Positions 8,857-30,790 of a DNA stretch of 64,000 nucleotides are shown here, in pieces; the first letter of the stretch is position 1, and each line of letters starts with the position of its first letter. Source of the DNA: Methanolobus mangrovi (GTDB lineage: Archaea; Halobacteriota; Methanosarcinia; Methanosarcinales; Methanosarcinaceae); assembly GCF_031312535.1 (NCBI RefSeq), contig NZ_CP133594.1, positions 1,302,001 to 1,366,000 on the forward strand, given 5' to 3'. The notes below the pieces were generated by a model. It saw only the letters and a program-made list of their open reading frames with translations, made no database searches and was not told the origin of the DNA. Made by a program: the position numbers and the translations under genes.

Positions 8857-10317
8857 TCATCCCATCAATTCTATATTCTGTTTGAGTATCTGTGAAAATA
8901 CCTCATTCTTCTTGACATCTGATTTTGCTTCTTCAAGACTTCTCTTTAGATTTGAAACGGAGTTTTCAAGGCTCTGAATATAGATCATCTGCTGTTCCAG
9001 TTTGTTATTGAGCTTCTTGATATCGAGATTCTGGCGATGTATTGTAACATGAGTACCAATTTCATTGTTGGTTCTCTCAACCATCTCTTCAAGCTCTTTT
9101 CTTTTGGATTCCATCTCTGCAAGAGCTTTTTCAATATCCCCTTCTAATATTGAATTATCCTCACGCTTCTGCCTTAGCTTTTCATCCTCAGCCTCAAGCT
9201 CAGATTTCTTCTCTTTCAGAGCCTTCATCTCATCCTGCAAAGCAAGTTCTTTTTCTTTGTGAACCTGTATATTTTCCTCATGCTTTAACCTGAGTTTTTC
9301 ATCCTCAGCCTCAAACTCAGATTTCTTTGTTTCCAGAGCCTTTATTTGCTCCAGGAAAGCCAGCTCCTTTTCTTCATGAGCCTTGACACTTTCTTCGTAC
9401 TTCAGCCGGGAAGCTTCCAGTTCACCGGTCTTAGAACCAAGTTCAGAGAACTCAGTATGTATATTACCTTTTATGCTTTCAATTGAAGAACGCTTTTTAG
9501 TAAGGACTGATTCTTCATCCTCAAGTTCACATCTAAGTGTCTCAATGTCTGCACGCTTTCGGTTAAGCTCTTTTAACTCAGCGTAATAATCGGACTTTAT
9601 TGCCTCAATGGCTGCAGGATAGGTGATATCTGCCAGATCAATAGAGATTTCCTCACCTGCTATTAGTTTCTCTTCCAGATACCGTCGCTTTTCATCCAGA
9701 TCATGTTGCTGTTGGTTGTATTTTTCAAGCTCACTATCATAAGTAGATCTCAGGGAAGATAATTCTTCCATCTTTGCAGTATACTCAGCAAATTCTTTCT
9801 CATACCCAAGTCTTGAGTCTTCAAATTCTTTAACCTGAGCTTCAAATGCAGAACGCTTTTGTTCAAATGCAGCGATCTCTTTTTTAAGCGCTTCTTTCTG
9901 TTCAGGAGGGATTGACTTTTCAGCTTTCTGCACAGCAGATTTCATTATCGCACATTTATTCTTAAGCTCCTGTTCCTGTTCAGAGAATTTGCTTTTGAGT
10001 TCATCAAGTTCTTTTTGTTTTTGCTCATATTCGCTGAGATTGGATTCATACCGCTTCTTAATTTCTGAAAGAGCAGACTCTTTCTGGAGAAGCTCTTCTA
10101 TGTCTGAACCCAGCTTTTTATAAACAGACTCCTGATTTTCCCGAGCATGACCCTGATTATTCCCTGACATGTAATTCTGCGGGCTTGAGGAAGATTCACC
10201 TTTTTTTACTTCCTTTCCCACATCATCTGTTGCATTAGGTTTTCTATAGATATTCGGAGTGAAAACCTTAGCTGAATTTTCAGCCTTTTTATTTTCCTCA
10301 GACCACAATGACTTCAT
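8857..10317 (-). CDS. Long coiled-coil protein coupled to an actin-like ATPase
   Basis: No enzymatic domain is recognisable in these 486 residues. Residues 1-70 are polar and low in complexity, while about 75-480 form nearly continuous coiled coil rich in Glu, Lys, Leu and Ala. Within it a unit of about 37 residues is nearly duplicated (EKELAFLEQIKALETKKSE and EKELALQDEMKALKEKKSE, each followed by an AEDEKLR block; DNA about 9140-9400). There is no signal peptide or membrane segment. The start overlaps the stop of the actin-like gene as ATGA, implying fixed stoichiometry and a joint role, probably as a filament partner or adaptor. Function is inferred from context only. Confidence 0.8.
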   Translation of the reverse strand: MKSLWSEENKKAENSAKVFTPNIYRKPNATDDVGKEVKKGESSSSPQNYMSGNNQGHARENQESVYKKLGSDIEELLQKESALSEIKKRYESNLSEYEQKQKELDELKSKFSEQEQELKNKCAIMKSAVQKAEKSIPPEQKEALKKEIAAFEQKRSAFEAQVKEFEDSRLGYEKEFAEYTAKMEELSSLRSTYDSELEKYNQQQHDLDEKRRYLEEKLIAGEEISIDLADITYPAAIEAIKSDYYAELKELNRKRADIETLRCELEDEESVLTKKRSSIESIKGNIHTEFSELGSKTGELEASRLKYEESVKAHEEKELAFLEQIKALETKKSEFEAEDEKLRLKHEENIQVHKEKELALQDEMKALKEKKSELEAEDEKLRQKREDNSILEGDIEKALAEMESKRKELEEMVERTNNEIGTHVTIHRQNLDIKKLNNKLEQQMIYIQSLENSVSNLKRSLEEAKSDVKKNEVFSQILKQNIELMG

Positions 10318-11354
10318 GATATCAATTCCTCATTCTGTTTTCCAGCATGCAGTTGTTGCCAGAATTCCAGCGGCATGTTCCTGGCAAGTTCCAGTGCACC
10401 TTCAGAAATAGCAAATGTAGAGTCCGGGTCAAGGAATACTTTACCTCCACCAAGTTCTTTAAGCTCATTTTCAATAAAAGTACCAAGATTTGGTAGATTG
10501 CTGGTACCGCCAAATATATGGATATTGTTCCTTACGGTTTCACGTATATCCTGATCAACATCAGATAACACCCTGGTGATGCCTGAAACTATGTCAGTTA
10601 ACACAAACTCACATGCAATCTGCATCTCTTCAGCTATTGATTCCTGAAGGGTGCCATTTTCAAGAGGAACATCCACAATACAAGAATCATGTACTGAACC
10701 AAGATTTCCGTATTTTTCTTTCCACTCCATAGCAAGTTCTTCCGTCATTTTTGAATCCGGCCATCTTTCATTGATAAGTTTAACGATCTCACGATCGATG
10801 TCCTTTCCGGCACATGGAAGACTCAGACACTCATTTTGCTGAGGAATGTTGCTGTTAATAACGCATATATCTGTTTTACCAGATCCTATATCCACTATCA
10901 TTGACCCTTCCTGAAGAGACTTTTTGTAAGCTATGCAAAAAAGCTCATCAACAACCATTGCACCTGAAAATATCTCACTGGAAAGCTCCAGAAGATTCAT
11001 TTTGTATTTCCGGTCCGCATTGGATGGTACACCTATTATTGCATAGGCAGTCTGTTTATCAGGGTCAACATCATGTTTATTAAGAAAATCTTTTAAAAAC
11101 TTCTTGAAAGCAAGAACGTCATCTTTCCCCTTCAATTCATTGTTCAGGGGTTCTTTGATAACACCATCCTGCAATTCCATAGCTTGTTTACCGGATAGTA
11201 TTTTCTCTTCTGTATTGTCGTTACCGTCCTGCAGAAAAGTTACCACACTTCGCTCAGAGAACTTTTTCCCATTGCTGGTGCAAACCGATGTTTTGAACAC
11301 ACCCGCATCTATTCCAAGATACAGGCACCCATTATTACTGTTAAAGTCCTCCAT
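10314..11354 (-). CDS. Actin-like (MreB/ParM/MamK-type) ATPase
   Basis: A 346-residue protein with the actin/Hsp70-type nucleotide motifs in order: phosphate-1 LGIDAGVFKTSV (D16), phosphate-2 VDIGSGKTD (154-162), and the adenosine motif IHIFGGTSNLPNL (about 278-290). Length and layout fit prokaryotic filament-forming actins rather than sugar kinases or Hsp70. It lacks the substrate domains of Ppx, hydantoinase or BcrA-type ATPases. It is the first gene of a two-gene operon with a long coiled-coil protein, suggesting a polymerising cytoskeletal or positioning system. Crenactin affiliation looks unlikely because eukaryote-like actin segments are absent. Polymerisation is inferred, not shown. 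Confidence 0.75.
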   Translation of the reverse strand: MEDFNSNNGCLYLGIDAGVFKTSVCTSNGKKFSERSVVTFLQDGNDNTEEKILSGKQAMELQDGVIKEPLNNELKGKDDVLAFKKFLKDFLNKHDVDPDKQTAYAIIGVPSNADRKYKMNLLELSSEIFSGAMVVDELFCIAYKKSLQEGSMIVDIGSGKTDICVINSNIPQQNECLSLPCAGKDIDREIVKLINERWPDSKMTEELAMEWKEKYGNLGSVHDSCIVDVPLENGTLQESIAEEMQIACEFVLTDIVSGITRVLSDVDQDIRETVRNNIHIFGGTSNLPNLGTFIENELKELGGGKVFLDPDSTFAISEGALELARNMPLEFWQQLHAGKQNEELIS

Positions 11355-11444
11355 ATTGATCTACCACTTTTTACTTGATCCTCATGAAACTCACACAAAT
11401 ATGATCATAAGATATTTTTTCCTGAATATGATGTCTTATTAAAT

Positions 11445-11460
11445 CAGTATTTATATATTA
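11445..11460 (-). promoter_or_regulatory. Probable TATA box for the actin-like operon
   Basis: Read on the minus strand the sequence is ATAATATATAAATAC, about 95 nt upstream of the actin-like start. The spacer 11461-11591 also holds a direct repeat, AATTAACAGAAA, at about 11491-11516, of unknown meaning. Confidence 0.4.
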
Positions 11461-11591
11461 TGAACATGGGATTTCAGTTTATGGCGATGAATTAACAGAA
11501 AAAAAATTAACAGAAAGTAAAAAACAGATACATACGGCATTAAATGAACAAATATACCTATGAACAAGATTTGGAAATATATGTCATTGGA

Positions 11592-12482
11592 TTATATATA
11601 ACTCTCTTTATGTTTTTTGTACAAAACGTGTATGATACCATCTGCAAGTCCCAGTTGTGGTACATGCATATAATTGATATTACCCCAATTCATGACAGAG
11701 TAATATATCTTTGATGCAGGTACAATAACATCAGCCCGATCAGGACGCAGACCAATCTTTGTTATACGCTGCTCCAGTGTGAATCCTTTAAGGTAATTAT
11801 TAAGATCTTTGATATCTTCAGCCATTAGAAGAGTACCATCCTTCCTGCCAGACATACGAAAGAGCTTGTTAATATTTCCACCACTTCCGATAGCATGCTC
11901 AGGTGCATTCTTACTGGTTACACTTTTCACCCAGCTTTTCATCTCATTCCAGTCCTTTTTTGTAACAATGCCTTCTAGCATTCGGATAGTACCTATATTG
12001 AATGACCTGTAAGCAAAAACATTGCTACCTTTGAACAGTATCAGTTCCGTACTGCCGCCACCCACATCAATATGCAGATAAGTTGAATCACTGCTTCCAA
12101 CTATCTTTTCTATACGATTGGAATAGATTATCTTCGCTTCTTTCCTTCCGCTTATAACTTTAAGGTCAATTCCACTCTTTTTCTTGATCATGGAAACAAT
12201 CTCATCGCTGTTGTCAGCCTCTCGCATGGCTGAAGTTGCACATGCCATAAAGTCAATTGGTCCATATGCATCCATCAGGTGTTTGAATGCGATCATCGTA
12301 CTCACTAGACTGGAAATCTTTTCCTGAGATATATTGTTATGAACAAATGCATCCTCGCCAAGACGGATGGGCATACGCACAAGAGATACCTTTTCATAGA
12401 TAGGTTCCACACCCCCGGAATCAACTCTTGATAGAAGCAACCTCACGGCATTGGAACCTACATCAATAGCAGCAAATTTCAT
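11592..12482 (-). CDS. ppx: Exopolyphosphatase, short Ppx/GppA form
   Basis: A member of the Ppx/GppA phosphatase family, which releases phosphate from polyphosphate ends or acts on pppGpp. The actin-fold signatures are clear: AAIDVGSNAVRL at 4-15 and the glycine-rich IDVGGGSTEL at 138-147. At 296 residues it holds only the two catalytic domains and lacks the C-terminal HD-type domain of long bacterial Ppx. The start ATG overlaps the ppk1 stop by one base (TGATG), so it is translationally coupled to the polyphosphate-making enzyme. This pairing favours polyphosphate as substrate. Confidence 0.9.
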   Translation of the reverse strand: MKFAAIDVGSNAVRLLLSRVDSGGVEPIYEKVSLVRMPIRLGEDAFVHNNISQEKISSLVSTMIAFKHLMDAYGPIDFMACATSAMREADNSDEIVSMIKKKSGIDLKVISGRKEAKIIYSNRIEKIVGSSDSTYLHIDVGGGSTELILFKGSNVFAYRSFNIGTIRMLEGIVTKKDWNEMKSWVKSVTSKNAPEHAIGSGGNINKLFRMSGRKDGTLLMAEDIKDLNNYLKGFTLEQRITKIGLRPDRADVIVPASKIYYSVMNWGNINYMHVPQLGLADGIIHVLYKKHKESYI

Positions 12483-14560
12483 CAGGCATCCTCATTATTC
12501 AATTGCTTTTCAAGGAAATCATAGATATCATCCTGAGCCCGGTAAGACCTGTCCCCACCTATTCTGTATTTATTATTCTGGTGCTCATCGATAATTCTTG
12601 CTTTGGTATTATCCAGGAATTGTAAACTCATGTATTCTTTCAACTCATTTTGAAGAGAAGGACCATATATGGGTGTCGCAACTTCCACACGCCTGTCCAG
12701 ATTCCTTACCATCCAGTCAGCAGATGAAATGAAATACCTTTCCTCTTCATTGTTGCAGAAAATGAAAATACGGGAATGCTCGAGATACTTATCAACTATA
12801 CTGATGGCTTCGATGTTTTCGCTGAACCCTTCAACACCCGGAACTAGTGAACAGATACCCCTGATAGCCAGTTTTATCCTGACCCCTGCCTTACTGGCAT
12901 CATAAAGTGCATTGATCATCTCGCTATCCACAAGACTATTCATCTTCGCATGAATGTATGCCGGCTTCCCTTCTTTTGCATTCTTTATTTCATTTTCAAT
13001 GTGTTTTTTGAATGCATTGCGCATTTGCAGAGGAGCTATTATGAGATGCTTGTAATCATATACTTTATAGTTATGAGTGAAGAAATCAAAAACCTTTTCC
13101 ACTTCAAATGTCAGATCAGGATTTGATGTCATAAGCATATGATCACAATAGAGCTTTGCAGTAGATTCATTGAAATTACCTGTCCCGATGCAGGAATAAT
13201 GAACAGGACTATTTCCCTCATTCCTTGTAATATGACAGAGTTTTGAATGGACTTTCAGACCGGGCACACCGTCAATAATCTTTGCACCCGCATCTTCAAG
13301 TTTCTGGGTCCAGTAAATATTGGATTCCTCATCAAACCTCGCCTGAAGTTCAATGACAACTGTAACGCTTTTCCCATTCTTTATTGCGTTAATGAGCGCA
13401 TTGATAACATTGGAATTGCGGGCAACCCTGTAAAGGGTGATCTTTATGCTCGAAACATTGGGATCGATGGCTGCCTCTCTTAGAAGGTCAATGAAATAAT
13501 CAAAAGACTGATAAGGATAATGAAGTAGAATATCTGTTTCCCTTATAGCAGCAAATATGCTTTTATGGCGCAGAAGGTCTTTGTGCGGTAAAGGATGTTT
13601 ATTTTCATAAAAGAATGAATCGGGTCCTACCTGTGGAAAATTCATGAAATCCTTTGCATTATGATATTTACCACCTGGTACAAGATTTTCGAATTTTTGG
13701 ATCTTTAGTCTTTTGAGCGTGAAATCCAGAAGATAGTAAGGCATATCCCGGTCATAGACAAAACGAACTGGCTGGCCTTTTTTTCTTTCCTCAAGGCTCT
13801 CAGATACCTTTTCAAAGAAACTTTTGGTTACATCATCATCAATATCCAGTTCAGAGTCCCTGGTCAGTTTTATCGTATATGCACCTATTGAATCATATTC
13901 AAATGTTGAGAAGATATCATCAAGACCAAAACGTATCACGTCATCCAGCATGATCACACATTTCTTCTCACCACAATGAGGAAGCATGATAAAACGGGGA
14001 AGAACATCCGCAGGAACCTCGATCAAAGCAAATTTTGAACCGTTTGGATCCCACTTTTTCCTGACATCGATTAGAAGATAGATAACCTGATTCTTTAAAT
14101 ATGGAAAACTTGGAATATCTTTCAGCATGACAGGAATAAGACGTGGCCGTACTTTTTCCTGGAAATAGGTTTTAAGGAAAGTCTTTTGAGCTTCATCAAG
14201 CTGTGTTTCATCAACAATGAAAATATCATGCTTTTCCAGCTCCTTTGTAAGTTCTACAAACACTTTGTCAAACTCATCCCGAAGCTCCAGCACTTTATTA
14301 TGAACCTGTCTCATAACCTTTCTAGGTGAAACACCCACCATAACCTTGGATTTAAAACCAGCATCTATCATCCGCTGTAAAGTACCAACCCTTACGCTGA
14401 AAAACTCATCAAGGTTCGAAGAGAATATCCCAAGGAACTTGAGACGTTCAAGTAATGGGACTCCAGGATCTTTTGCTTCCTGGAGTACTCTTTCATTGAA
14501 TGAAAGCCAGCTGATCTCCCGGTTAATATAATCCTTCACTTCATTGGACATAAAGCTCAT
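12482..14560 (-). CDS. ppk1: Polyphosphate kinase 1
   Basis: Catalyses reversible transfer of the ATP gamma-phosphate onto polyphosphate. All four PPK1 regions are present: the N-terminal block INREISWLSFNERVL, a middle phosphohistidine block (KVHSKLC with the catalytic His, then GTGNFNEST), a second PLD-like lobe (YIHAKMNSLVD), and a C-terminal region SSADWMVRNLDRRVE. The open frame extends to 14668, but those first 36 residues are hydrophobic and unlike PPK1. Homology begins just after the ATGs at 14560 and 14551, so 14560 is chosen; the Shine-Dalgarno site is weak. ppx follows with a one-base overlap. The upstream spacer 14640-14690 has several TATA-like runs. Confidence 0.9.
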   Translation of the reverse strand: MSFMSNEVKDYINREISWLSFNERVLQEAKDPGVPLLERLKFLGIFSSNLDEFFSVRVGTLQRMIDAGFKSKVMVGVSPRKVMRQVHNKVLELRDEFDKVFVELTKELEKHDIFIVDETQLDEAQKTFLKTYFQEKVRPRLIPVMLKDIPSFPYLKNQVIYLLIDVRKKWDPNGSKFALIEVPADVLPRFIMLPHCGEKKCVIMLDDVIRFGLDDIFSTFEYDSIGAYTIKLTRDSELDIDDDVTKSFFEKVSESLEERKKGQPVRFVYDRDMPYYLLDFTLKRLKIQKFENLVPGGKYHNAKDFMNFPQVGPDSFFYENKHPLPHKDLLRHKSIFAAIRETDILLHYPYQSFDYFIDLLREAAIDPNVSSIKITLYRVARNSNVINALINAIKNGKSVTVVIELQARFDEESNIYWTQKLEDAGAKIIDGVPGLKVHSKLCHITRNEGNSPVHYSCIGTGNFNESTAKLYCDHMLMTSNPDLTFEVEKVFDFFTHNYKVYDYKHLIIAPLQMRNAFKKHIENEIKNAKEGKPAYIHAKMNSLVDSEMINALYDASKAGVRIKLAIRGICSLVPGVEGFSENIEAISIVDKYLEHSRIFIFCNNEEERYFISSADWMVRNLDRRVEVATPIYGPSLQNELKEYMSLQFLDNTKARIIDEHQNNKYRIGGDRSYRAQDDIYDFLEKQLNNEDA

Positions 14561-14709
14561 TTTTCTTGATTTTAAAAACATTAGAATGCTGTCGTATTTT
14601 AATATAAATACAGCAATCCTGTTATTTAATACTTCATACAGATTCATATATAGTAGTATATAGTACAATATAGCCTAATACGATCAATACAAGTCAACAG
14701 ACACCATTT

Positions 14710-16593
14710 TCAAGATAGGTAAATACCTGATATTGACTGCGAAAACCTCACACTGAAATCCGGATCGATAACCTTTGACCATACATCAGGGAAGGTATCA
14801 AGGAGGTTTTGAAGTTCCTGTTTCCTGTATTCAAGATAAGCATCCACACCCGGATAATCCTGAAGTCCGGTTGAAGCATGGGAACTTTTTTTATCAACTT
14901 CACCCCACCTGCCATATTTCTCGAAATTCTCCAGGAGTTCAAGTGCAACCACCGTATCATGCATATCTCCCAGATTATCCTGGAGGGCCTTCAGATCCCT
15001 TATAAGATCCCTGGACTCTGAACCAAGTACTTCTTTAAAGAATTCAAGTGTATAGCGTAGTATCTTAACATCAATTCTCAGCTGATGATATTTTTCAAGG
15101 GATGGATCGACTACTGTTTCATCTGAAATAACTTCATCATATGCTCTGACAGCTGCAAACTGGGTGTATAAAAGTACAGGCAGAACATCCATGACCCTGC
15201 AAGGAACAGGTTCACCATTCTTATTTATGGATTTCATTTTCCAGGCTTTTTTCCCCAGAAGATAATCAGCAAAATTATTTTTGAACTTATTATACTTTAC
15301 ATCATCCAGATACTCAAGCATGTTACCGCGCTGCTTTGCCTTCTCTATTAGAATGGAATCTGTAAGTGGATCCATGTCTATTCGTATTTCAGGAGATTGG
15401 CCCTCAAGGTAATGATCTATCTTCTCAAGGAAAACATCCAGATCTCTCACAGAACCCAGTACCCTTCTTGTAGATTTGATGTTCCTGTAATGTGAAAACA
15501 TCTTTTTCATATCAAGATAATCTTCCAGAACCTCGATAGCCGAGCGCATACGCATTGCAGCAACCCTCATATCATGAAGTTGTTCAATATCCTTTCCTAC
15601 TTTCGTCCCTCTCTCGTGCTCAACCATGACTCCGAAATGGAACATGAGTATCTTGCGTGCAGCATCTCGCATTGTATCGGTGGCCTTGATGTCGGTCTTT
15701 TTCATTGACCTGAATTCAGAGAACGGAACAACAGGCATGTCGGAGGCAGATATTTCTAGTGTCTCTGCGGAAGCCACTGCAATTGACCCAATATCTTCAA
15801 CTTGAGTTTTTTCAGGTATTCCAATATCCTCTGTTTCCGGAATTTCAACTATTTCCGGGAATTGTGTTGTTTCCAGAGCTGTGGGTTCGATGAAGCTATT
15901 ATCTTCTTTGATCTCTTCAGCAATTGCTGGATCAGACATCGTGTTTTCCTCAGTGTTCTCCATTATTTGTGACTCCGGCTGTTTTTCTCCAGAAGCTGTA
16001 TCAGTTACGATGAATGTATCGTCGCTTCCACTTGTATTTGTAAGGAAAGCTGGCTCGTAAGAAGCTGTTGTTATATTAGTTATCAAGATACCTGCAAAGG
16101 TTGCAAGTACGGAACAATCATTATGTTGATCAGGTTCATTGGCGATGACAGAGCATTGTTTCTGAACGGTTGTTCCCTGCTCTTTTGAGCTTTCAAACGC
16201 CTGCAGAAAATAATTAGCGAAAATATTGATCAATAGCAGAAAAATCCCCAGTGAATAAAATATTATCACATAGGATACCCTTGGATATAAACAGTTGTCA
16301 GGGAATGAGAATACGAACATAAGAACTCCTGTTACAGAGAGCAGCATACCTGCTATGAAAGAATAATTCTGTGAAAGCTGACGGCGAATTCCTGCAATAT
16401 TGATGCCTGCAAGAATTAACAGTATCCCAAAACCCAGTAAGAAGCAGACTATTAATATTACCTCTGAACCGGAACTGCGACTGAGCCTGCTGACTATTGC
16501 AAATAGAAGGCCGGTCATGCAAAACACCAGACCGATCAAAAAACCCAGAGATGCAGTTAAGGAATATTTCTTAACAAACATGTTCGATGACAA
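14710..16593 (-). CDS. Membrane-anchored CHAD domain protein
   Basis: A 627-residue protein built in three parts. Four hydrophobic segments (about 10-33, 43-67, 77-95, 104-128) are followed by an acidic, low-complexity linker (about 130-300). The last part (about 305-625) is a CHAD domain, recognised by LHDMRVAAMRMRSA and the paired YHQLRIDVKILRY with conserved His and Arg. CHAD helical bundles bind polyphosphate, and its place just upstream of ppk1-ppx supports this. The first codon appears to be TTG (16593), preceded by GGGGAG at four bases; an ATG at 16581 is the alternative. A role in tethering polyphosphate at the membrane is inferred. Confidence 0.82.
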   Translation of the reverse strand: MSSNMFVKKYSLTASLGFLIGLVFCMTGLLFAIVSRLSRSSGSEVILIVCFLLGFGILLILAGINIAGIRRQLSQNYSFIAGMLLSVTGVLMFVFSFPDNCLYPRVSYVIIFYSLGIFLLLINIFANYFLQAFESSKEQGTTVQKQCSVIANEPDQHNDCSVLATFAGILITNITTASYEPAFLTNTSGSDDTFIVTDTASGEKQPESQIMENTEENTMSDPAIAEEIKEDNSFIEPTALETTQFPEIVEIPETEDIGIPEKTQVEDIGSIAVASAETLEISASDMPVVPFSEFRSMKKTDIKATDTMRDAARKILMFHFGVMVEHERGTKVGKDIEQLHDMRVAAMRMRSAIEVLEDYLDMKKMFSHYRNIKSTRRVLGSVRDLDVFLEKIDHYLEGQSPEIRIDMDPLTDSILIEKAKQRGNMLEYLDDVKYNKFKNNFADYLLGKKAWKMKSINKNGEPVPCRVMDVLPVLLYTQFAAVRAYDEVISDETVVDPSLEKYHQLRIDVKILRYTLEFFKEVLGSESRDLIRDLKALQDNLGDMHDTVVALELLENFEKYGRWGEVDKKSSHASTGLQDYPGVDAYLEYRKQELQNLLDTFPDVWSKVIDPDFSVRFSQSISGIYLS

Positions 16594-16620
16594 TGATCTC
16601 CCCTCGGGTAATATCGACTA

Positions 16621-16965
16621 TTATAATTTAATGCGCTTCAGTTCATTTATAGTCTCACTGAGAACCTTTTGCTGCATTTTCATTTGCCTGATATGACTTT
16701 TTATCAGGCGTTTTTTTGCTTTTTTGCTTTTGTTTTCGGAAAGTGAACCTTTTAGTGCCTTTAGCTTTGATTGGACCTTGAATTTCACTATTTCCCTGTC
16801 CTTAAGGATTGCTTTAACCGGACAGATCTTTATGCATTTGCCACAGTTGATGCATTTTTCATTTAAAATAAGAGCTTTCCCCTTTACCATATCAATTGCA
16901 TCCACAGGACATTTTTTTACACATTTCCTGCACGAAATACATTCCTTTTTATTGACCCATGGCAT
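16621..16965 (-). CDS. 2[4Fe-4S] ferredoxin with basic C-terminal tail
   Basis: Two complete CxxCxxCxxxCP clusters (CISCRKCVKKCP and CINCGKCIKICP) occupy the first 50 residues and should bind two [4Fe-4S] centres. The remaining 60 residues are strongly basic and helical (KSKKAKKRLIKSHIRQMKM). Such a tail is unusual for a ferredoxin and might bind RNA, DNA or polyphosphate. The open frame reaches a GTG at 16974, but AGGGAG (16979-16974) sits eight bases before the ATG at 16965, which is the better start. It is 28 bp upstream of the CHAD gene on the same strand. Confidence 0.82.
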   Translation of the reverse strand: MPWVNKKECISCRKCVKKCPVDAIDMVKGKALILNEKCINCGKCIKICPVKAILKDREIVKFKVQSKLKALKGSLSENKSKKAKKRLIKSHIRQMKMQQKVLSETINELKRIKL

Positions 16966-17101
16966 ATTATTCACTCCCTATTACTAATGGGTCAAGCAGG
17001 TATAAAAGTATATACAGTGAAGGAAATATACTATACGTTGCTGTCATGTGAAAACTTATGCTGACCAGATTCAACATTCATTTGCTTAAAGAGAGATTGA
17101 T

Positions 17102-18397
17102 ATGATCCAGTCCATCCAGTGGGGTATTGACCCTTTATCATTCGTTTTTCTGGAGAAGATAATACTTTCACTGATGATAGGGATACTTATCGGTATTGAG
17201 AGGGAACACTGGCGTGCAGATAAAAAGATATTCGCAGGGGTCAGAACCTTTGCCATTACCTGCATAACAGGTACTCTTGCCACGCTACTTGTTGATTATA
17301 TCGGCGTATGGATACTTGTTATAACAAGTCTTCTTGCAGTTCTTTCTTCAGCAGCTCTCATATACGTCGTCAACATCCTCAAAGGTAAATCAGGACTTAC
17401 TACTGCAATTGCACTCTTCTGCACATACCTTTTAGGAATAGTCGTTGCCCAGGGACTATATCTGGTAGCAATAGTCACAGCCCTTATACTGACTTTCATC
17501 CTTATAGAGAAGAAACCTCTGCATTCATTTGCAGAGCATCTCTCGGAAAGTGACATAAATAGCGCTATTAAATTCCTGGCAGTTGCCTTTGTACTTTACC
17601 CGATAATGCCGGAAGAACCCATCTATGGAATTCTGAGGCTCAAATCAGCCATACTTATAGTAGTACTGGTCTCATTCATTAGTTTTGTAAGTTATATTTC
17701 CCTGAAAAAGATGGGGCCAAAAGGTGGCATTCCGTATTCTGGTTTTTTTGGAGGATTCATTAGCAGTGAAGCCACCGTAGCTGCACTTTCAGGATTATCA
17801 ATGAAAAGACCGATACTCAAGGATTCCATTCACATCGGTTCAATGCTTGCAGTAGTATCTATGATCATAAGTAACACTATTATAGCACTGATTGCAGATC
17901 CGACTGCAAAGACTGCCTCATTAATGGCTCCACCTTTCGTGGTAATGGGAAGCATCGCCATTATAGTTGTAGCACTCAAATGGAAGAATACATTGAACCT
18001 GGAAGAAAGCATAGATATAGGCTCACCGTTCGCACTTGGTCCGGCATTCAAATTCGGAGCTGTATTCACAATACTCCTTGTTATCGCTAACTTCGCTAAC
18101 GAATATGGAGGAACAGGGGGGGCTTATGTGACAGCACTCGGAGGAATAGTCAGCAGTTCTGCAGTGACTGCTTCTGTAGCAGCACTGGCATTCTCAGGAA
18201 ACCTTTCGGTCCAGACAGCTGCTGAAACAGCGATCCTTGCCGGACTTATCAGTACCCTCAGCAAAACATTCTACATAAAGGTCACCGGCTCACCCGAGCT
18301 GTTCAAAACATCCCTTTTATCATTCATCGCGATTGTAGCAGCCGGGTCTGTCACATTGATAATATGGAGCTTTTACATACGGACATATCTTGGTTAA
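17102..18397 (+). CDS. MgtC/SapB-like membrane protein with DUF4010
   Basis: A 431-residue integral membrane protein with about 12 hydrophobic segments. The N-terminal third has the MgtC/SapB signature (GILIGIEREHW, then GVRTFAITCITGTL), and the rest matches the DUF4010 type (GFFGGFISSEATVAAL, GGIVSSSAVTASVAALAF). The substrate is unknown; Mg2+ or other ion handling is only suggested by the MgtC-like part. It is the first plus-strand gene of the polyphosphate district, 56 bp before the tandem PPK2, and might balance cations bound to polyphosphate. Confidence 0.75.
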   Translation: MIQSIQWGIDPLSFVFLEKIILSLMIGILIGIEREHWRADKKIFAGVRTFAITCITGTLATLLVDYIGVWILVITSLLAVLSSAALIYVVNILKGKSGLTTAIALFCTYLLGIVVAQGLYLVAIVTALILTFILIEKKPLHSFAEHLSESDINSAIKFLAVAFVLYPIMPEEPIYGILRLKSAILIVVLVSFISFVSYISLKKMGPKGGIPYSGFFGGFISSEATVAALSGLSMKRPILKDSIHIGSMLAVVSMIISNTIIALIADPTAKTASLMAPPFVVMGSIAIIVVALKWKNTLNLEESIDIGSPFALGPAFKFGAVFTILLVIANFANEYGGTGGAYVTALGGIVSSSAVTASVAALAFSGNLSVQTAAETAILAGLISTLSKTFYIKVTGSPELFKTSLLSFIAIVAAGSVTLIIWSFYIRTYLG

Positions 18398-18453
18398 TTA
18401 GAGAATCTATATAACTATATATATTGAAGCGTACTATTTTTTATGGATAATAC

Positions 18454-19956
18454 ATGCTTGAAAATGTAGATCTGGATAAAAGTCTCAGCAAAGAAGAATA
18501 TGATGACATAATCGAAGATTTGACGATACGAATTGGAGAACTACAGAGAAAAGCATGGAAAACGGACATACCCACCATCATAGTCTTTGAAGGTTGGCAC
18601 GCATCCGGTATGACAGAGATAATCAACCGATTCCTTTTGACCCTCAACCCAATGGGATTTGACCTTTACACAACCGGAAAGCCCTGTTATCAGGAAGAGC
18701 AAAAACCACTATTATGGCGTTTCTGGACAAAGATACCGAAGAAGGGAAGCATCGCTATCTTTGACAGGAGCTGGTATCGCAGAGTAGTCATAGAACATGA
18801 CGGGAAAGGTAAAGTGGATAAGCACATGCCGAAATGCCTTGAGGGTATAACCTATTTTGAAAGACAGCTCACAGATGAAGGATACCTCCTCATCAAATTC
18901 TTCCTTCATGTCAGCAAAAAAGAACAGGCAAAGAGATACCGTGACTTGAAGAAGGAAGGCGTACCACTTTTTATCGTAGAGGAAGAGGAACAGGAATATC
19001 TCAATGAATACGACAGGCATCTGCCCGTAATAGAAGGGATCCTTGAAAGAACGGACAAAGCCTCTGCACCATGGACCATTGTAGAGGCTGAGGACAAAAA
19101 CTTTGCCACTGTTAAAGTGCTTGCAAAGGTTATAGAGTCGATAGAGAATAAAATAGTTGAAGCTGAGAGCAATGCCGAAGCAACTCAAAATGACCAAGTT
19201 GATAACTGTGTCATCCCGAACATAGATTCATCGATACTTGAAAAAATAGATCTGGATAAAAGTCTCGCTTACAAAGAATACAAAAAAGAAAAGAAGGCAT
19301 GTCAGAAAAAGATAGCACAACTCCAGTATGAGCTTTTCAGGAACCGTATTCCCCTTATCGTACTATTTGAAGGCTGGGACGCTTCAGGAAAAGGTGGTAG
19401 CATAAGGCGACTTGCACAGAAACTGAACCCCAGATTATATCGTGTGATCCCTGTGGGAGTGCCTTCAAATTATGAACTGGCACATCATTATCTGTGGAGG
19501 TTCTACAATGAGATACCCGAAGCAGGCCACATCGGGATATATGACAGGAGCTGGTATGGCAGGGTGCTTGTGGAACGGGTGGAAAAACTGTGTAATACCC
19601 ATGAATGGAAGCGTGCTTACAGGGAGATAAATGAGTTTGAGGAAATACTCACTAACTACGGCACCATAATCATCAAGTTCTGGACCCATATTGACAAAGA
19701 GGAACAGCTTAACCGGTTCAAGCAGCGTGAGAACACACCATATAAGAAATGGAAGATCACATCAGATGACTGGCGCAACAGGGAAAAATGGAACCTGTAC
19801 CTTAGTGCTGCAGATGAGATGCTTCAAAAGACAAGCACTTCCTGGGCACCCTGGACAATCGTTGAATCCAATGACAAGTACTACTCAAGGATAAAGATAC
19901 TACACACTGTCATCGACCGCATAGAAGAGGAACTGAAACAGAGAGGACTTCAATAG
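18454..19956 (+). CDS. Tandem PPK2 protein (polyphosphate:AMP phosphotransferase type)
   Basis: Two PPK2 domains are fused in 500 residues. The second (about 260-500) has an intact Walker A FEGWDASGKGG at 305-315 and Walker B-like YDRSWYGR at 363-370. The first (about 1-235) keeps DRSWYRR but its P-loop reads FEGWHASGMTE at 45-55, losing the Lys and Gly-Gly. This degenerate-plus-active arrangement is that of class II PPK2, which phosphorylate AMP to ADP with polyphosphate. A TATA-like run lies at 18405-18423. It converges with the CYTH-HD gene, overlapping it by 7 bp at the 3' ends. Confidence 0.88.
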   Translation: MLENVDLDKSLSKEEYDDIIEDLTIRIGELQRKAWKTDIPTIIVFEGWHASGMTEIINRFLLTLNPMGFDLYTTGKPCYQEEQKPLLWRFWTKIPKKGSIAIFDRSWYRRVVIEHDGKGKVDKHMPKCLEGITYFERQLTDEGYLLIKFFLHVSKKEQAKRYRDLKKEGVPLFIVEEEEQEYLNEYDRHLPVIEGILERTDKASAPWTIVEAEDKNFATVKVLAKVIESIENKIVEAESNAEATQNDQVDNCVIPNIDSSILEKIDLDKSLAYKEYKKEKKACQKKIAQLQYELFRNRIPLIVLFEGWDASGKGGSIRRLAQKLNPRLYRVIPVGVPSNYELAHHYLWRFYNEIPEAGHIGIYDRSWYGRVLVERVEKLCNTHEWKRAYREINEFEEILTNYGTIIIKFWTHIDKEEQLNRFKQRENTPYKKWKITSDDWRNREKWNLYLSAADEMLQKTSTSWAPWTIVESNDKYYSRIKILHTVIDRIEEELKQRGLQ

Positions 19957-21203
19957 TCTTCCCTGAAATATACATCCTTTTCAAAGAGCAAACGCCACAG
20001 GTCAGCTTTTGTATCTGCCCTGTCGGCATCTGTGTCTGCTCCAGGCCCCATCACTTTTATGACTATGTCTTCTTTCTCAAGATCAATATCAACTATTTTA
20101 CTATCCATTCTGCTGAGATCCAGTGCATCTGCGAGTCTTAGAATTGCGGACATTTTGAGTATGTCATCCTGCATCTGCAAAGGAAGCTGGGAGAACTTCT
20201 TGTTCTGGGATAGTTTTTGAAGCTTCTTTTTATCAATCCTCTTCTTATGGAGGAAGGTCATCCACGGCAGGAACAGACAGAGAGGATAGGGAAGTTCCTC
20301 AGGACATGTTGAAAGGAGGATATCCCTTCCTACCTTATGGTGGGTGCTGACATCGGTCATAACCCCTATATCATGAACAAGAGCTGCAAACCTCAATGTC
20401 TGGCGAAGATTCCCATCCAGTGCATGAATAGGTTTGAGTGCATCAAAGAGCATTAAGGAATTCTCGGCAACCTTACGGGCATGCTCCTGTTCGATACTGT
20501 ATTCTTCGAACATATCCCTGATAGGCGAGAATGTTATCTGCTGATTATCAGAAACGATACCATAATCAAGGCTTTTAGCATCTTGTTTAATGTTCTCCAT
20601 ATAGAGTTCAAGCCCATTGTCAAATTTGGAACTGGTGCCTACAACCAGACCTGCTTCATCCCGGAAAAATGCAGCTATCTGATGAAGTTCATCCTCTTTG
20701 CCATCACCCATTAGCTCTACTTCAAGCTCAAGATAGATTTTTTTGTTGTTTCCACAAATGATGATAACATCATCAAAACTCAATTCGGCCACATGCCGTT
20801 CTCTGTTGTAGACCTGAAGGTCTGTTCTTTTGTGTTCTACAAGAAACAGTGGGAAGAGATTACCCGAGCCTATCATCTTTAATACCCGGTTCTTAAGGTC
20901 ACAATCATTCCATTCTTTCACAGGAACCTTCTCAGAAAGGGTGAATTCGGTTTCTTCCCTCATATGGATAAGAGAACTTGCACTTTTCAGTGACTTGAGA
21001 GTATAGACCACCTTGTCTTTTTTTTCTCTGCACCTGAATGAAAAACCTGAAGCGTATATTGCCATGTCCAGTGTATCAAGGTAAGTATCTCTGAACTCTT
21101 TCAGCACAGCATCCGAAATACTAAACTCATTTATTGAATCTATATTCATGAGCTTATCGAACACATCACGCCCTGATACAAGGAACTTAGCTTCAATTTC
21201 CAT
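19950..21203 (-). CDS. CYTH-HD fusion protein
   Basis: Residues 1-200 form a CYTH (triphosphate tunnel) domain: the N-terminal EIEAKF provides the ExExK motif, and later strands carry FRCREKK, YTLKS and LELEVEL. Residues from about 225 to 400 form an HD-type domain (LVHDIGV about residue 275, then a distal HHKVGRDILL) resembling the C-terminal domain of long Ppx/GppA proteins. CYTH enzymes act on tripolyphosphate or triphosphates and are often linked to CHAD. It lies downstream of CheR and GNAT on the same strand with short gaps (10 and 38 bp), so it may be co-transcribed with them. Confidence 0.8.
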   Translation of the reverse strand: MEIEAKFLVSGRDVFDKLMNIDSINEFSISDAVLKEFRDTYLDTLDMAIYASGFSFRCREKKDKVVYTLKSLKSASSLIHMREETEFTLSEKVPVKEWNDCDLKNRVLKMIGSGNLFPLFLVEHKRTDLQVYNRERHVAELSFDDVIIICGNNKKIYLELEVELMGDGKEDELHQIAAFFRDEAGLVVGTSSKFDNGLELYMENIKQDAKSLDYGIVSDNQQITFSPIRDMFEEYSIEQEHARKVAENSLMLFDALKPIHALDGNLRQTLRFAALVHDIGVMTDVSTHHKVGRDILLSTCPEELPYPLCLFLPWMTFLHKKRIDKKKLQKLSQNKKFSQLPLQMQDDILKMSAILRLADALDLSRMDSKIVDIDLEKEDIVIKVMGPGADTDADRADTKADLWRLLFEKDVYFREDY

Positions 21204-21596: not shown

Positions 21597-22202
21597 TCAA
21601 CCAACTTTTCGGTACAGCTGTGCATTTGCAACAACCGGTTCAAAGTATTCCTGCATTTCCAGAGGAATCTTCTGGGTCTGTTCGGTTGCAAAATAACCAC
21701 CCTCAAGAGAATCATGGAACATCTTGAGAACTTCTATCCTTTCCTCTTCCTTAAAATGCAAAAGTACATTTTTACACAGAATCAGGTTGAGACCTGTTCT
21801 GATAGGTTTCAGATTTAAAAGGTCATTTTTTGTGAATTCAACACTTCTCCTGATTTCATCGGAAATCCGGAAGTGGTCGGGTTCATCTGCTGGTGAGAAA
21901 TATTTATTGAATATTGGCTCCGGTATCCTCTGAACCATTTCCCGGGGGTATATACCTTTTTTAATTATATCTCCAAACAGGTTGCTGTTATCTATGTCCG
22001 TTGCATGTATCTTCACATTCCTGAAGGTCATACCCATATTCTCCCTCAGCACAATTGCCAGTGAGTAAGGTTCTGGACCCATGGCACAGCCGGCATCCCA
22101 TATATGAATGTAACGTCGGCTTCGAAGTTCAGGAATTACATAATCCCTGATCATTTCCAATGTTTGCATATCCCTGAAAAAATAAGTGAAAGCTATTGCC
22201 AT
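21597..22202 (-). CDS. Short CheR-type receptor methyltransferase
   Basis: The 201 residues cover only the SAM-dependent catalytic domain of CheR: the TxFFR-like segment FTYFFRD at 5-11, the SAM loop WDAGCAMGPEPYSLA (about 35-49), ATDID, and the end motif LILCKNVLLHF. The alpha-helical N-terminal domain present in standard CheR (about 270 residues) is missing. AGGAG just before the ATG and an upstream TATA-like run (22215-22245) show this is a real start rather than truncation by error. It probably methylates Glu residues of the nearby soluble receptors. Confidence 0.8.
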   Translation of the reverse strand: MAIAFTYFFRDMQTLEMIRDYVIPELRSRRYIHIWDAGCAMGPEPYSLAIVLRENMGMTFRNVKIHATDIDNSNLFGDIIKKGIYPREMVQRIPEPIFNKYFSPADEPDHFRISDEIRRSVEFTKNDLLNLKPIRTGLNLILCKNVLLHFKEEERIEVLKMFHDSLEGGYFATEQTQKIPLEMQEYFEPVVANAQLYRKVG

Positions 22203-22342
22203 CCTCTCCTGCTACTATTTAAATATAATACATTAATTATATTTATATATTTCTCGGTTAAATTAAGGATGACTTGTGCAGATGATATTGAAGAGTAAAA
22301 AAAGTAAATTAAAAAGAAAAAAGAAAGGAAAAGAAAAAAGGA

Positions 22343-22361
22343 TTGCCTGAATATCAGGCAA
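22343..22361 (-). terminator. Hairpin terminator spanning the cheW stop
   Basis: Arms 22343-22350 (TTGCCTGA) and 22354-22361 (TCAGGCAA) pair perfectly over 8 bp with a 3-nt loop. On the minus strand a T-rich tract (complement of 22308-22340) follows. The stem includes the last codons and stop of cheW, and ends the receptor-cheW transcript before the cheR promoter. Confidence 0.7.
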
Positions 22362-22845
22362 GACTTGCGATATCCTCAACTTCCTTTTTATTCAATACTT
22401 TTGCAAGATCAAGAAGTATCAGAAGGCGACCATCCATTTTGCCTACGCCTGTGATATATTCCTTACTTACACTTGACATGACAAGTTCAGGAGCCGGATC
22501 AATATTTGAAGCAGGGATTCTCAATACCTCATTCACGGAATCAACGATCATACCCACAACATTATTGCCGATCTCAACAACAATTATGCGTGAATGCTCA
22601 TCTACTTCCTTTGATCGGAGATTAAAGCGTTTATCAAGATTGATAACCACAATAATCTTTCCACGCAGGTTGATGACACCTTCTACATACTCAGGAGATT
22701 GTGGGATCTGTGTGATCTCAGGCATCCGTATGATCTCCTGGACCTTCATGATCTCTACTCCGAATTCTTCACCACCTAGCTGGAAAACTACCATTTGTAA
22801 TAATTCATCAACGGAAGTTGTTCCGGATTTTAAATCATCTGCCAT
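22354..22845 (-). CDS. cheW: Chemotaxis coupling protein CheW
   Basis: CheW couples receptors to the kinase CheA. The 163-residue protein has typical landmarks: VFQLGGEEFGVEI, VQEIIRMPE, VEGVINLRGKIIVVINL, and the C-terminal GRLLILLDLAKVL. It follows the 1186-residue receptor by 18 bp in the same operon. No cheA, cheB or cheY is in the window, so the array kinase must be encoded elsewhere. Confidence 0.92.
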   Translation of the reverse strand: MADDLKSGTTSVDELLQMVVFQLGGEEFGVEIMKVQEIIRMPEITQIPQSPEYVEGVINLRGKIIVVINLDKRFNLRSKEVDEHSRIIVVEIGNNVVGMIVDSVNEVLRIPASNIDPAPELVMSSVSKEYITGVGKMDGRLLILLDLAKVLNKKEVEDIASLA

Positions 22846-22863
22846 TTATTATATCACACCTTA

Positions 22864-25800
22864 TTAAACAAGAGCATGCTCTTTCTTTTCTATTCCCTGG
22901 CTTCTTGCAGGGCCTTTACTTTGTCCACCTGAGGTAGACGAAGAATCCAGTATAAACTTATCAACGACTGCTTTCATCTCACCTGCAAGGCTTGAGAGAT
23001 CTTCTGCTGATCTTGAAAGTTCCTGCATTGTTGCGCTTTGTTCCTGAACCGCTGCAGATGCTTCTTCTGTTCCTGCTGCGGATTCTTCTGATATTGCACT
23101 GACCTCTTCAATAGAAGAAGTGACTTCTTCAATAGAAGCAGACTGTTCTTGTGCAGCAGCTGCAATATCCTGAACCATACTTGCTATCAGGTTACCTGCA
23201 GCAACCACATCTTCAATGACATTAGCTACTTCATTAATGGCAGATGCACCAGTCTCAACCTCTTCAGAACCCTGCTGCATGGATGTAACAGCATTGTGCG
23301 TGCCTTCCTGTATCTCCCCGATGAGTGTTGAGATCTGTTTGGCGGCATTACCTGAATCCTCAGCAAGTTTCCTCACTTCATCCGCCACAACGGCAAATCC
23401 ACGGCCATGCTCACCTGCACGTGCTGCTTCAATTGCTGCATTCAGTGCAAGCAGATTGGTCTGGTCTGCAATGTTAGTGATCAGATTGACAATCTCACCT
23501 ATCTGCTTGGACTTGCCATCAAGTTCCATTATGACACCGGAAGACTCTGAAGTTGCATTCCTGATGGAATTCATCTTGACAAGGAGATCTTTGGCAATTA
23601 CACCAAGACTATTGATCAGTTCATTAGACTCCTTTGCATTCTCTGCTGCTTTTTGTGAATTCGTGGCAACTTCCTGCACAGTCATAGTCATATCTACCAT
23701 TGCCCTTGAGACCTCTTCGGTCTTTGATGCCTGGCTCTGTGCCCCTCTCGAGATTTCTGAAACCGTATCAGCTACCTGATAGGACGAAGAAGACATCTGT
23801 TCAACAGAAGCTGACATCTCCTCGGCTGTTGATGCAACATTCCTTGAGCTGTCATATACCATTGAAACAACATCATTCAATGATAGTCTTGTGTTCTCAA
23901 CACCATCTGTCAGTACCTTGAACTCTCCAACACCGTGAACAGAGACTGCCCTGCTGAGGTTGTTATTTGAAATTTCTCCCAGCACACTGGAGGAATCTGC
24001 AATTATTGCCTGCAGGTTTCCACCGAAATCATCGAGTGTATCGGAGAATAACTTGAAATCACCCTTTGTTACGAAGTCGAACCTTGCATCAAGGTCACCT
24101 TCAGAATACTTATTGACTATACGCATTGCCTCATTAAGTGGATTCACAAGCGCATCTATAGCCAGGTTGACAGTATTGATAGCGTCGCTGAAACGTCCCT
24201 CATAAAGGGAGCCATCTGCCCTGTAGTCAAGGTTACCGGCCTCCGCTGCGTTACCAAGTTTTATGAACTCATTTACAATACCCTCGATGTTGCTCATCAT
24301 TGAAATGTAACATGGGATGAGCTCATCATTCTCGGAGCGTTTGCCAATCTTCTTAAGCCCTTCAAGATTGCTCAGGTCACCAACAGCGATCTTCTTGTTC
24401 ACACTCATTGTGGTCAGGATTCTTTCACGAACACCATTTGTAGCGGATGCCACTTCAGCATAGATTCCCTGGTAATTACCTTCAACTTTTCTTGTATGAT
24501 CGTTGTTAACCATAAGCTGCAGAATTTCATTGGACTCTACAAGACCACCGAGACCATCGATACAACCATTGATGTTGTTCTTGAGAATATTGAAGTCACC
24601 CTTGTATTCATCATTGATCTTTTCAGGTATCTCTCCCTTTGCTATCTGGTCAACATACTCAGCTGTCATTTTCAAAGGACAGATAACAGCATCAAATGCT
24701 TTGTTCACAGTTGTAGTCGCTTCATTGAAAAGACCCTGGAATCGTGAAGATTCAGCTCTGTGCTCAAGATTACCTGATTCGGCAGCGTGCCCCAGAGCAA
24801 TGAACTCATCGGCCATTCCCTTGACTGTTTCCATGAGTCCAATGGTGTATGGCAACAGTTTATCATTCTCAGAACGTTTGCCTGCTTGCTTATATCTTTC
24901 AAGGTCACTGAAATCACCCTTGGCCATGAATTCGAATGTACGCTGGATATTCAGGAGCCTGTTGCGAACTTCGTTTACAGCCTGGCCTACTTCATAATAG
25001 ATACCCTGATAATCTCCTTTCACATCCATTGTAAAATCGTTTACTGCCATTTTTTGCAACACATTGTTTGCTTCGACCATACCACCGATGCCATCAATAC
25101 ATGCATTGATGTTATTCTTTATCTCGTTGAAATCACCTTTATAGTCATCAGTTATCTTTTCAGGGATGTCACCTTTGGAGATACGATCAACATATTCAGC
25201 CGTCACATTAAGCGGAGCAATCATGGCATCAAATGCAGTATTTACAGTACTGACAGCCTCCTGGAAAAGACCATCAAACTTTGAAGGATCTACCCTGTAG
25301 TCTAGCTTTCCATCTTCTGTAGCATGACCAAGTTCAATGAACTCATCGGCCATTCCCTTAACCGTTTCCATAAGTCTGATAGTGTATGGCAACAGCTTAT
25401 CATTTTCAGAACGCTTGCCTGCTTGCTTATATCTTTCAAGGTCACTGAAATCACCTCTGGCCATGAACTCGAATGTACGCTGGATGTTCAATAACCTGTT
25501 ACGTACCTCATTTACAGCATAGGCATTATTCTTGAATACTCCATTATATTCACCATTAACACTGTTCTCAAAGTCGTTCTCAGCCAGCTTGAGAAGAATA
25601 TCAGTGCTCTCATTCAGTGGTCTTGCAATTGAGTCGAGAGTATTATTAAGGTTCTCTATGATAGTCCTGAACTCACCACCATGACGTGTTGCATCGACAC
25701 GCATATCAACTCTACCTTCTGCGCCTGCTATTGCAAGGCTCTCCGAGTCTTTGATAAGTGCATTGATCGCATCGACACAGATGTTCAGGTTGTTCTTGAA

Positions 25801-26424
25801 ATCATTATAATCGCCTTTGAATTCCTTTGTGATCTTCGGAGGGATATCTCCCTTTGAAAGCCGATCCACATATTTGGATGCTGCTGTGAAAGGTCTGATA
25901 ATCGAATCAAGCATTTCATTGATCCCAAGAACAAGTTCTTTGAATTCGCCTTCAAAATTCTCAGGGTCTGCACGAACATCAAGTTTACCTTCAATGGCGG
26001 AACTCACCAATAGATTGATCTGATCATGAAGCTTCTTCTGCTCATCTACATCCTTTTTCCACCCTGTGGCCTTGTCAAGAAAAGTATTCAATGCTTCTAC
26101 CATCTTGCCTTCTGTACCATCGACCTGAAGGCTGAGTTTTGAACCAGAACTGCCGTTAGTAGTAGAATTCAAAATATTGATTACATCATTATGCAACTTG
26201 TTGCTCTTTTCTATTTTAAGAGAAGTCTGCTCAGAATGTATTTTCTGTTCTGCCACTTCGTTCTTCCACCCCGTGGCCTTGTCCAGAAAAGCATTCAATG
26301 CTTCTGTCATCTCTCTTTCAATCCCACTGCTTTGAAGGTTTAGTCTGGAATCAGACTCACCTTTTTCGATGGAATTCAAAACATCAATGATTTCATTGTA
26401 TAGTTTGTTGTTTTTCCCTAACAT
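22864..26424 (-). CDS. Soluble poly-HAMP methyl-accepting chemotaxis protein
   Basis: An 1186-residue receptor without signal peptide or membrane segment. The N-terminal 850 residues are a long array of HAMP-like repeats (recurring DYRx[35 protein letters not shown]). The last third is a standard MCP signalling domain, with hairpin tip [20 protein letters not shown] (about residue 990-1010). It should form a cytoplasmic chemosensory array with the adjacent CheW. The signal is not evident: there is no PAS, Cache or other ligand domain. The ATG is followed by MLGKNNKL, similar to the start of the second receptor, indicating paralogy. The C-terminus lacks a CheR-docking pentapeptide. Confidence 0.88.
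24790..25521 (-). repeat. 179-codon near-identical HAMP repeat pair in the receptor gene
   Basis: Segments 24790-24984 and 25327-25521 are closely similar at DNA level, offset by 537 bp (179 codons). Both encode a module containing FEFMA(K/R)[16 protein letters not shown] and [12 protein letters not shown]. The similarity points to recent internal duplication or gene conversion within the array. Confidence 0.75.
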
Positions 26425-26656
26425 ATTATCACCCTATAAAATCAAATTCACTAAAGTGTAAGTTTAACTTTTGCACATATAACCTGTAAAAATTATACCC
26501 GAGCATACAATTCAGTATAATTATAATTAGGCTGATTTAAAGATAAGCACGATAATATAAAAGTATATCATTAAAAAATATATGAGAGAATCTATCAAAA
26601 TGTTTTCAAAAGATGAATGACTAATAAAAATAGAATAGATAAAAGAAATGAATAGA

Positions 26657-26922
26657 TCATGCTGAAATACAGGCAGCATAACCAGTACGAACTATCCCTG
26701 CCAGTTGGCTCTTTCCGAGCACTCTTATGGAGTTGATCAGAAAAAGCAAACGGTCATTGAGGTTACCGATTCCCTCTACAAAATCAGGAGATTGAGGAAT
26801 ATGGACAAGTTCGGGAATACGGATGATCTCCTGAACGTTGTTATACCCATTCCAAAATCCTCCCTGAACAGCTGAAGCATGTTATCGAAGAATTCTGAGC
26901 GATCTAAAGATATTTAATCCAT
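26657..26922 (-). pseudogene. Decayed CheW gene
   Basis: Reading the minus strand from an ATG at 26922 gives a stop at the third codon (TAA). Then comes a CheW-like MLQLFREDFGMGI, a frameshift near 26845, and NVQEIIRIPELVHIPQSPDF joined to VEGIGNLNDRLLFLINS, ending IVRTGYAACISA. The first part matches CheW around residues 16-56 and the second matches residues from about 136 onward, so about 80 codons are missing internally. Stop, frameshift and deletion all show it is not functional. It sits just after the second receptor, as cheW does after the first. The rest of the 514-bp gap (26425-26656) is AT-rich with nothing else recognisable. Confidence 0.85.
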
Positions 26923-26938
26923 TAAACAACCCCTTTCA

Positions 26939-29900: not shown

Positions 29901-30790
29901 TCATTCATTCCCTCTACGAGTTTAGCATATTCACCGCTGAACTTTGCAGAGTCTGCACGGGTAGCGAGCTTGCCCTCAATTGCAGCATCCGTAAGGAACT
30001 CAGCTTCAGTTAAAAGAGCATTAATAGAATCTATACAGAGGTTGAGGTTATTCTTGATCTCATTGAAATCCCCGCTGTAGGAATCAGTGATCTTTTGGGG
30101 AATATCACCTTTTGAAATACGATCGATGTACTCAGCAGCTACATTAAGAGGACCTATGAATGCATCAAGGCAACCATTCACTCCCTCCACAACCTTACGG
30201 AAATCGCCATTATGCCTGCTGGAATCTGCACGGGTATCAAGACGTCCTTCCACACCAGCCTGTGCAAGTATCACAGCATCATCGACCAATGCATTGATAG
30301 CATCTATACACATGTTGAGATTGTTCTTGATCTCATTGAAGTCACCTTTATACTCGTCCGTGATCTTTTCAGGAATGTCACCTTTTGAGATACGGTCAAT
30401 ATATTCTGCAGAAACGTTCAAAGGACCCATGACAGCATCAAGAAGCTGGTTTATACCACCAAGGATCCTGTTGCAATTACCTTCCATTGATGAAATATCA
30501 CCACGTACGTCGAGTTTGCCCTCCACAACTGCATCGATCAATCGAAGGACTTCTCCTGCAAGCTTTTCATTCTGAACTTCATCAGCTGCCTTTAGGTCCA
30601 GTATCTTTTCTTTTTGAGCTAATTCATTCTTTAATGAGAAGTATTCGTCTAAAATAGCATTCAAAGATTGTGCCACTTTTCCATCTAAAGAACTACCTTT
30701 TGGAGAGATTCTGGCAGTTGAATCTCCCGATCCCACTGCATCAAGTACACTGATAAGTTCAGTCTTCAATTTATCGTTCATCCCTAGCAT
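26939..30790 (-). CDS. Soluble poly-HAMP receptor with two Cys-containing PAS domains
   Basis: This 1283-residue methyl-accepting protein has no membrane segment. Order: N-terminal HAMP-like repeats (about 1-300), two PAS domains (about 310-420 and 430-545), more HAMP repeats (about 550-920), then the MCP signalling domain with tip [20 protein letters not shown] near residue 1090. Each PAS carries the same Cys spacing C-x8-C-x4-C, starting at GTKCYDHY (about residue 346) and GAKCYELF (about 464). The first has an extra Cys two residues on. This suggests a metal, Fe-S or redox-disulfide sensor. A decayed cheW follows at its 3' end. Its promoter lies in the AT-rich divergent spacer. Confidence 0.88.

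Follow-up and report, generated by a model that had tools for sequence, protein, structure and literature searches.

A MamK-related actin-like protein with a dedicated coiled-coil partner in Methanolobus mangrovi and its relatives

The stretch of 64,000 nucleotides analysed from the genome of Methanolobus mangrovi (hereafter the window) encodes an actin-like protein (ALP) directly followed by a long coiled-coil protein (CC), and the two very probably form a filament with its dedicated tether. The proposal of an earlier note on this DNA, that of a filament-forming actin served by its own coiled-coil partner, is well supported by homology, by the predicted fold and by conservation of the pair in 54 of 54 ALP-bearing genomes. 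The complete reading, a MamK-type filament and coiled-coil tether with soluble chemosensory arrays or the archaellum base as cargo, is plausible but is put forward tentatively. The features of the gene pair are as follows.

10314..11354, minus strand: ALP, MamK-related actin-like ATPase of 346 aa, from its open reading frame, sequence and fold matches and tree
8857..10317, minus strand: CC, coiled-coil partner of 486 aa, directly 3' of ALP
10314..10317, minus strand: ATGA overlap of 4 bp, ALP stop and CC start
10237..10263, minus strand: N-terminal motif FTPNIYRKP (CC residues 19-27), conserved in Methanolobus partners
9268..9378, minus strand: internal duplication of CC, copy 1, 37 aa (residues 314-350)
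9151..9261, minus strand: internal duplication of CC, copy 2, 37 aa (residues 353-389)
8860..9054, minus strand: C-terminal tail of CC, about 65 aa (residues 422-486), candidate ALP-binding module, homologous to the partner tails of Methanoperedens, ANME-2 and g4
11441..11467, minus strand: promoter block ATGTTCATAATATATAAATACTGATTT, TATA element with flanks, 27 nt, upstream of ALP

Both open reading frames, of 346 and 486 residues, were confirmed as real, and the ATGA common to them may couple their translation. Purifying selection acts on both genes in most comparisons of closely related species, with dN/dS values of about 0.10-0.22 for ALP and CC; a single pair gave 0.45 for ALP. In CC, heptad periodicity is significant over most of residues 57-480, with breaks near 113-138, 197-234 and 309-365, and residues 1 to about 56 have no coiled coil. 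This N-terminal region carries the motif FTPNIYRKP, whose coding pattern is unique within the genome. The internal duplication of 37 residues was upheld: when the protein is compared with itself at an offset of 39 aa, 24 of the 37 positions match, whereas none of 200 shuffles gave more than 15.

In the PDB the top sequence match of the window ALP was MamK (5ljw, 5jyg and 5ljv, E about 1e-41). Its score on the NCBIfam model of MamK was 224 bits, under the curated cut-off of 400, while a Methanoperedens ALP reached 398.4 bits and several bacterial relatives exceeded 400. On the MreB model (PRK13927) it scored 42 bits, short of the cut-off of 293. The AlphaFold model of ALP (pLDDT 89, pTM 0.87) has an actin fold, and its best fold match was not a non-polymerising ASKHA enzyme but the subunit of the MamK filament (Z 37.0, 319 residues aligned, rmsd 2.6), followed by BeeR (Z 34.0) and by MreB and actin (both about 32). 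When the tree was rooted on MreB, the archaeal ALPs came out as a single clade (support 100/100) among bacterial MamK-like proteins. The fork uniting this clade and the bacterial MamK-like rows with MamK has a support of 88/89, is drawn open and includes two wrongly cut rows; deeper forks are weak, and three salactin rows (L127, L129, L131) are usable, with two others (L130, L132) being wrong open reading frames. Because of the NCBIfam score, the PDB and fold matches and the tree position taken together, ALP is judged, from sequence and model, to be a divergent relative of the bacterial MamK family, to be called MamK-related rather than MamK. The tree also suggests that the archaeal ALP may have been acquired from bacteria. 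One of the bacterial MamK-like genes (L091:7021-9999) lies between genes for an N-acetylmuramoyl-L-alanine amidase and a receiver-SPOR protein. A viral or plasmid origin of ALP was considered and rejected: no relatives were found on viral contigs, and the plasmid matches listed were only MreB-like or unannotated.

The distribution of the pair was surveyed in 186 genomes of Methanosarcinales, of which 54 bear ALP: 26 of the 27 genomes of Methanolobus, three of a second genus of Methanosarcinaceae (g4), six of family f2 and 19 of genus g16, the latter two being named ANME-2 and Methanoperedens by named records. In every one of these 54 genomes the gene immediately downstream of ALP encodes a coiled-coil or ArlD/E-type partner, an absence of the pair from related genomes being what the earlier note had held to count against its proposal; several partners outside Methanolobus run off the contig end or hold masked bases and were checked in part. 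The spacing between the two genes ranges from -4 to +46 bp, the one exception being a gene model with an uncertain start. At most Methanoperedens loci (L077-L088) the start codon of the partner follows the ALP stop codon immediately and in the same frame. A literature search on MamK in archaea and methanogens gave no account of an ALP-CC pair, and one on Methanoperedens together with MamK gave no match.

Partners outside Methanolobus begin with an ArlD/E-type domain followed by coil, with total lengths of about 200 to 1940 aa. The PF04659 (ArlD/E) model was above the Pfam cut-off in all five Methanoperedens and ANME-2 partners scanned (f2 and f5), and the domain was assigned to the remaining partners outside Methanolobus by eye from sequence similarity. 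Giant coiled-coil partners with such a domain occur in ANME-2 (L057:2640-8462, 1940 aa; L083:2691-7664, 1657 aa). A Pfam scan of the window CC did not find PF04659, and the Methanolobus proteins have the FTPNIYRKP start instead. What the partners have in common is the C-terminal tail of about 65 residues, whose homology was recovered by hhalign with a probability of 96%, an E-value of 3.5e-9 and a score of 54, against scores of at most 23 for interior coil windows short of the tail; interior and reversed controls were far lower. A tail profile built from Methanolobus only gave 20-51 bits on the Methanoperedens tails and a held-out g4 tail, with 257 decoys at or below 7.9 bits; the giant ANME-2 partners were marginal at 8-10 bits. 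Since it is common to the partners, this tail is likely the part that binds ALP. Co-folding of a Methanoperedens ALP and its partner as a read-through, in frame over one stop codon, did not yield a confident model, the pLDDT being 47.6 and the pTM 0.34.

The neighbours of the pair listed next, all on the same strand, fall into a chemosensory group and a polyphosphate island.

22864..26424, minus strand: methyl-accepting chemotaxis protein (MCP) with several HAMP domains, no TM helix predicted; a matching cluster directly precedes ALP in some Methanolobus
22354..22845, minus strand: CheW
21597..22202, minus strand: CheR
11592..16593, minus strand: Ppx, Ppk1 and a CHAD protein (polyphosphate island), judged to lie outside the system

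The MCP, CheW and CheR genes (21597-26424) are about 10 kb upstream of the pair, with the polyphosphate island in between. In one Methanolobus genome (G015, locus L074) the three genes directly upstream of ALP are MCP, CheW and CheR by Pfam, and in the other three Methanolobus without PPK1 the upstream open reading frames are similar to these in size and order; in these four genomes (G005, G012, G015, G023) CheW is 1.4-2.0 kb from ALP. In 21 Methanolobus genomes CheW shares a contig with ALP, at a distance of 1.4-17.6 kb; for a single genome the probability of this by chance is about 4%, but the genomes are non-independent, and this closeness can be passive synteny. Across the order, CheW is present in 48 of 54 ALP-bearing genomes vs 74 of 132 others, and within Methanoperedens in 17 of 19 vs 6 of 12 (p 0.03), both comparisons being uncorrected for relatedness; counted by genus, the co-occurrence is not significant. 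These counts were compiled by hand, and the Methanoperedens total was deduced from consecutive genome handles. A clear CheW was not seen in six of the 54 ALP-bearing genomes, including the near-complete G454, and the partly annotated neighbourhoods of the pair in Methanoperedens and ANME-2 showed no recognisable Che genes.

Other features of the chemosensory genes were also noted. Two large MCPs, each with multiple HAMP domains, follow one another in the region 22864-30790 of the window; the second has PAS domains as well, and hydropathy predicted no TM helix in either. Elsewhere in the genome, a che cluster with CheA- and CheB-like neighbours, recognised by eye, includes a protein of about 706 aa with an FtsA-like ASKHA fold (L140:7369-9489, about C1:113368-115488) that scores above the cut-off of PF14450. 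Among the 186 genomes, strong CheF matches and ALP were not seen together in any one genome, a pattern that by hand count is not significant at genus level.

The archaellum switch proteins ArlCDE bind CheF and may touch the polar cap, and chemosensory arrays have been observed in association with this cap (PMC8978795); for this reason the ArlD/E domain of the partners may point to motility or sensing machinery. The suggestion that chemosensory or motility machinery is the cargo has circumstantial support from the gene neighbourhood and the ArlD/E domain on partners. CheF counts against it: as the link it was discarded, ALP-bearing genomes having given just four weak partial matches and no convincing detection. 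In the mechanism that we propose, ALP would polymerise into a MamK-type filament to which the conserved C-terminal tail of the partner would bind. The variable coiled coil would set the reach of the tether or bundle filaments, and the N-terminus of the partner would hold the cargo, through the ArlD/E domain outside Methanolobus and through FTPNIYRKP within it. Soluble chemosensory arrays or the archaellum base would be the most likely cargo; such arrays would need placing because the neighbouring receptors are without a membrane anchor.

The nucleotide site of ALP bears on how dynamic such a filament would be. All three actin motifs expected of the 346-residue protein are recognisable, the phosphate-1 motif being LGIDAGVFKTSV, phosphate-2 VDIGSGKTDIC and the adenosine motif FGGTSNLPN; the first two deviate from the MamK consensus, in which they read LGVDLGTSHTAV and VDIGAGTTDIC, respectively. 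Both are altered throughout the Methanolobus clade, whereas Methanoperedens retains MamK-like motifs. The position which we take, from general knowledge of MamK, to be that of the catalytic Glu is E, D, G or S in Methanolobus according to species. Many Methanolobus copies have an eroded ATP site, so that it is uncertain whether they would polymerise dynamically. It is therefore possible, though somewhat doubtful, that the Methanolobus ALP hydrolyses ATP slowly or not at all and is co-assembled with CC into a static scaffold, with the Methanoperedens protein being a dynamic MamK-type actin. This would accord with the clade-wide changes and with the purifying selection that persists on both genes, but in the window ALP the catalytic Glu is retained, as is the DxG of its phosphate-2 motif, and the predicted fold is intact. 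A static scaffold of this kind would be compatible with the chemosensory or motility cargo favoured here.

A general cytoskeletal role that involves no particular cargo, be it in cell shape, in division or in DNA segregation, is less likely. Archaeal precedents exist in volactin, which has been linked to shape (PMC10869688), and salactin, linked to DNA segregation (PMC10746226), and the pair is found in nearly every Methanolobus sampled. Elsewhere, however, its presence is patchy, and with only five of the 27 genera of the order bearing ALP it does not behave as a core shape or division gene; such a role would also leave the ArlD/E domain of the partners unexplained. DNA as the cargo found no support, as a ParMRC-type centromere-like iteron array was not found beside the operon, where only two copies of a 15-nt direct repeat lie upstream of ALP, and the search for viral and plasmid relatives gave no viral ones and, among the plasmid matches listed, only MreB-like ones.

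The positioning of polyphosphate granules by the filament, as MamK positions magnetosomes, is very improbable, although the arrangement of the genes invites it. Most Methanolobus genomes, like the window, have the pair behind ppx, ppk1 and a CHAD gene of the same orientation (the 240 bp given in the earlier note was measured as 237 bp to the end of ppx), with PPK2 and a CYTH protein farther along, and the wider island of the window (11592-21203) comprises Ppx, Ppk1, a CHAD membrane protein, tandem PPK2 and a CYTH protein with Ppx-GppA domain III. However, PPK1 is missing in 31 of the 54 ALP-bearing genomes, among them the four Methanolobus named above, each estimated to be 99% complete and retaining the pair, and granules are therefore refuted as the general cargo. 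Outside Methanolobus PPK1 and ALP are anti-correlated, PPK1 being present in just one of 28 ALP-bearing genomes vs 59 of 131 others. The pair also has a conserved promoter of its own, which argues for regulation independent of ppx: across 21 Methanolobus loci 22 of the 27 positions of the block do not vary, whereas the best block ahead of the DHS or ferredoxin genes has no invariant position at all. The idea of a promoter regulon was rejected, no second copy of the block having been found in the genome with up to three mismatches allowed.

The reading of a MamK-related filament tethered to chemosensory or motility machinery remains the preferred one. In its boldest form, which we regard as speculative and rather unlikely, a MamK-type filament acquired from bacteria would be linked, through a coiled-coil adaptor with an ArlD/E domain, to the machinery of chemosensing and of the archaellum, forming at the pole a scaffold akin to the archaeal polar cap. 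MamK-like actins, best known for magnetosomes, are now placed in archaea that produce or oxidise methane, where a coiled-coil partner always accompanies them and the relatives of that partner bear an archaellum-type domain. This bears on how archaea position their motility and sensing machinery (PMC8978795, PMC6509185), and the cultured species of Methanolobus are organisms in which the role of the pair can be tested.

Among known systems, MamK is the nearest solved relative of ALP by sequence and fold, with equal length and domain plan, and it too is helped by separate partner proteins in positioning cargo. ALP differs in its score under the NCBI cut-off, its archaeal host, its altered phosphate motifs and its single co-encoded coiled-coil partner, and no magnetosome genes were recognised among the Pfam-annotated neighbours of the pair. 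The nearest functional precedent is found in Desulfovibrio magneticus, where MamK and Mad28 work with the extended coiled-coil proteins Mad20, Mad23, Mad25 and Mad26 (PMC12748827), so that actin-like and long coiled-coil proteins jointly place cargo; the view that bacterial actins work with small adaptors is to that extent incomplete. The archaeal partner, likened to the Mad proteins by description, is instead a single protein whose tail is conserved and whose relatives carry an ArlD/E domain. BeeR (PDB 8r2n) is the second-best solved match by sequence and fold, but ALP scores 118 bits on its NCBIfam model, short of the cut-off of 530, and BeeR falls outside the group of MamK and the archaeal proteins in the tree. 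Salactin and volactin are likewise archaeal actin homologues, from haloarchaea. Salactin has been reported as closest to MamK (PMC10746226), but ALP reaches only 45 bits on its NCBIfam model against a cut-off of 400, and the salactin-like rows sit on a separate long branch; volactin was set beside ALP by description. The archaellum switch proteins ArlD and ArlE are matched through PF04659 by the N-terminal domain of the partners outside Methanolobus, but the partner genes adjoin an actin rather than an arl cluster, the domain is followed by coiled coil and tail, and the window CC is without it.
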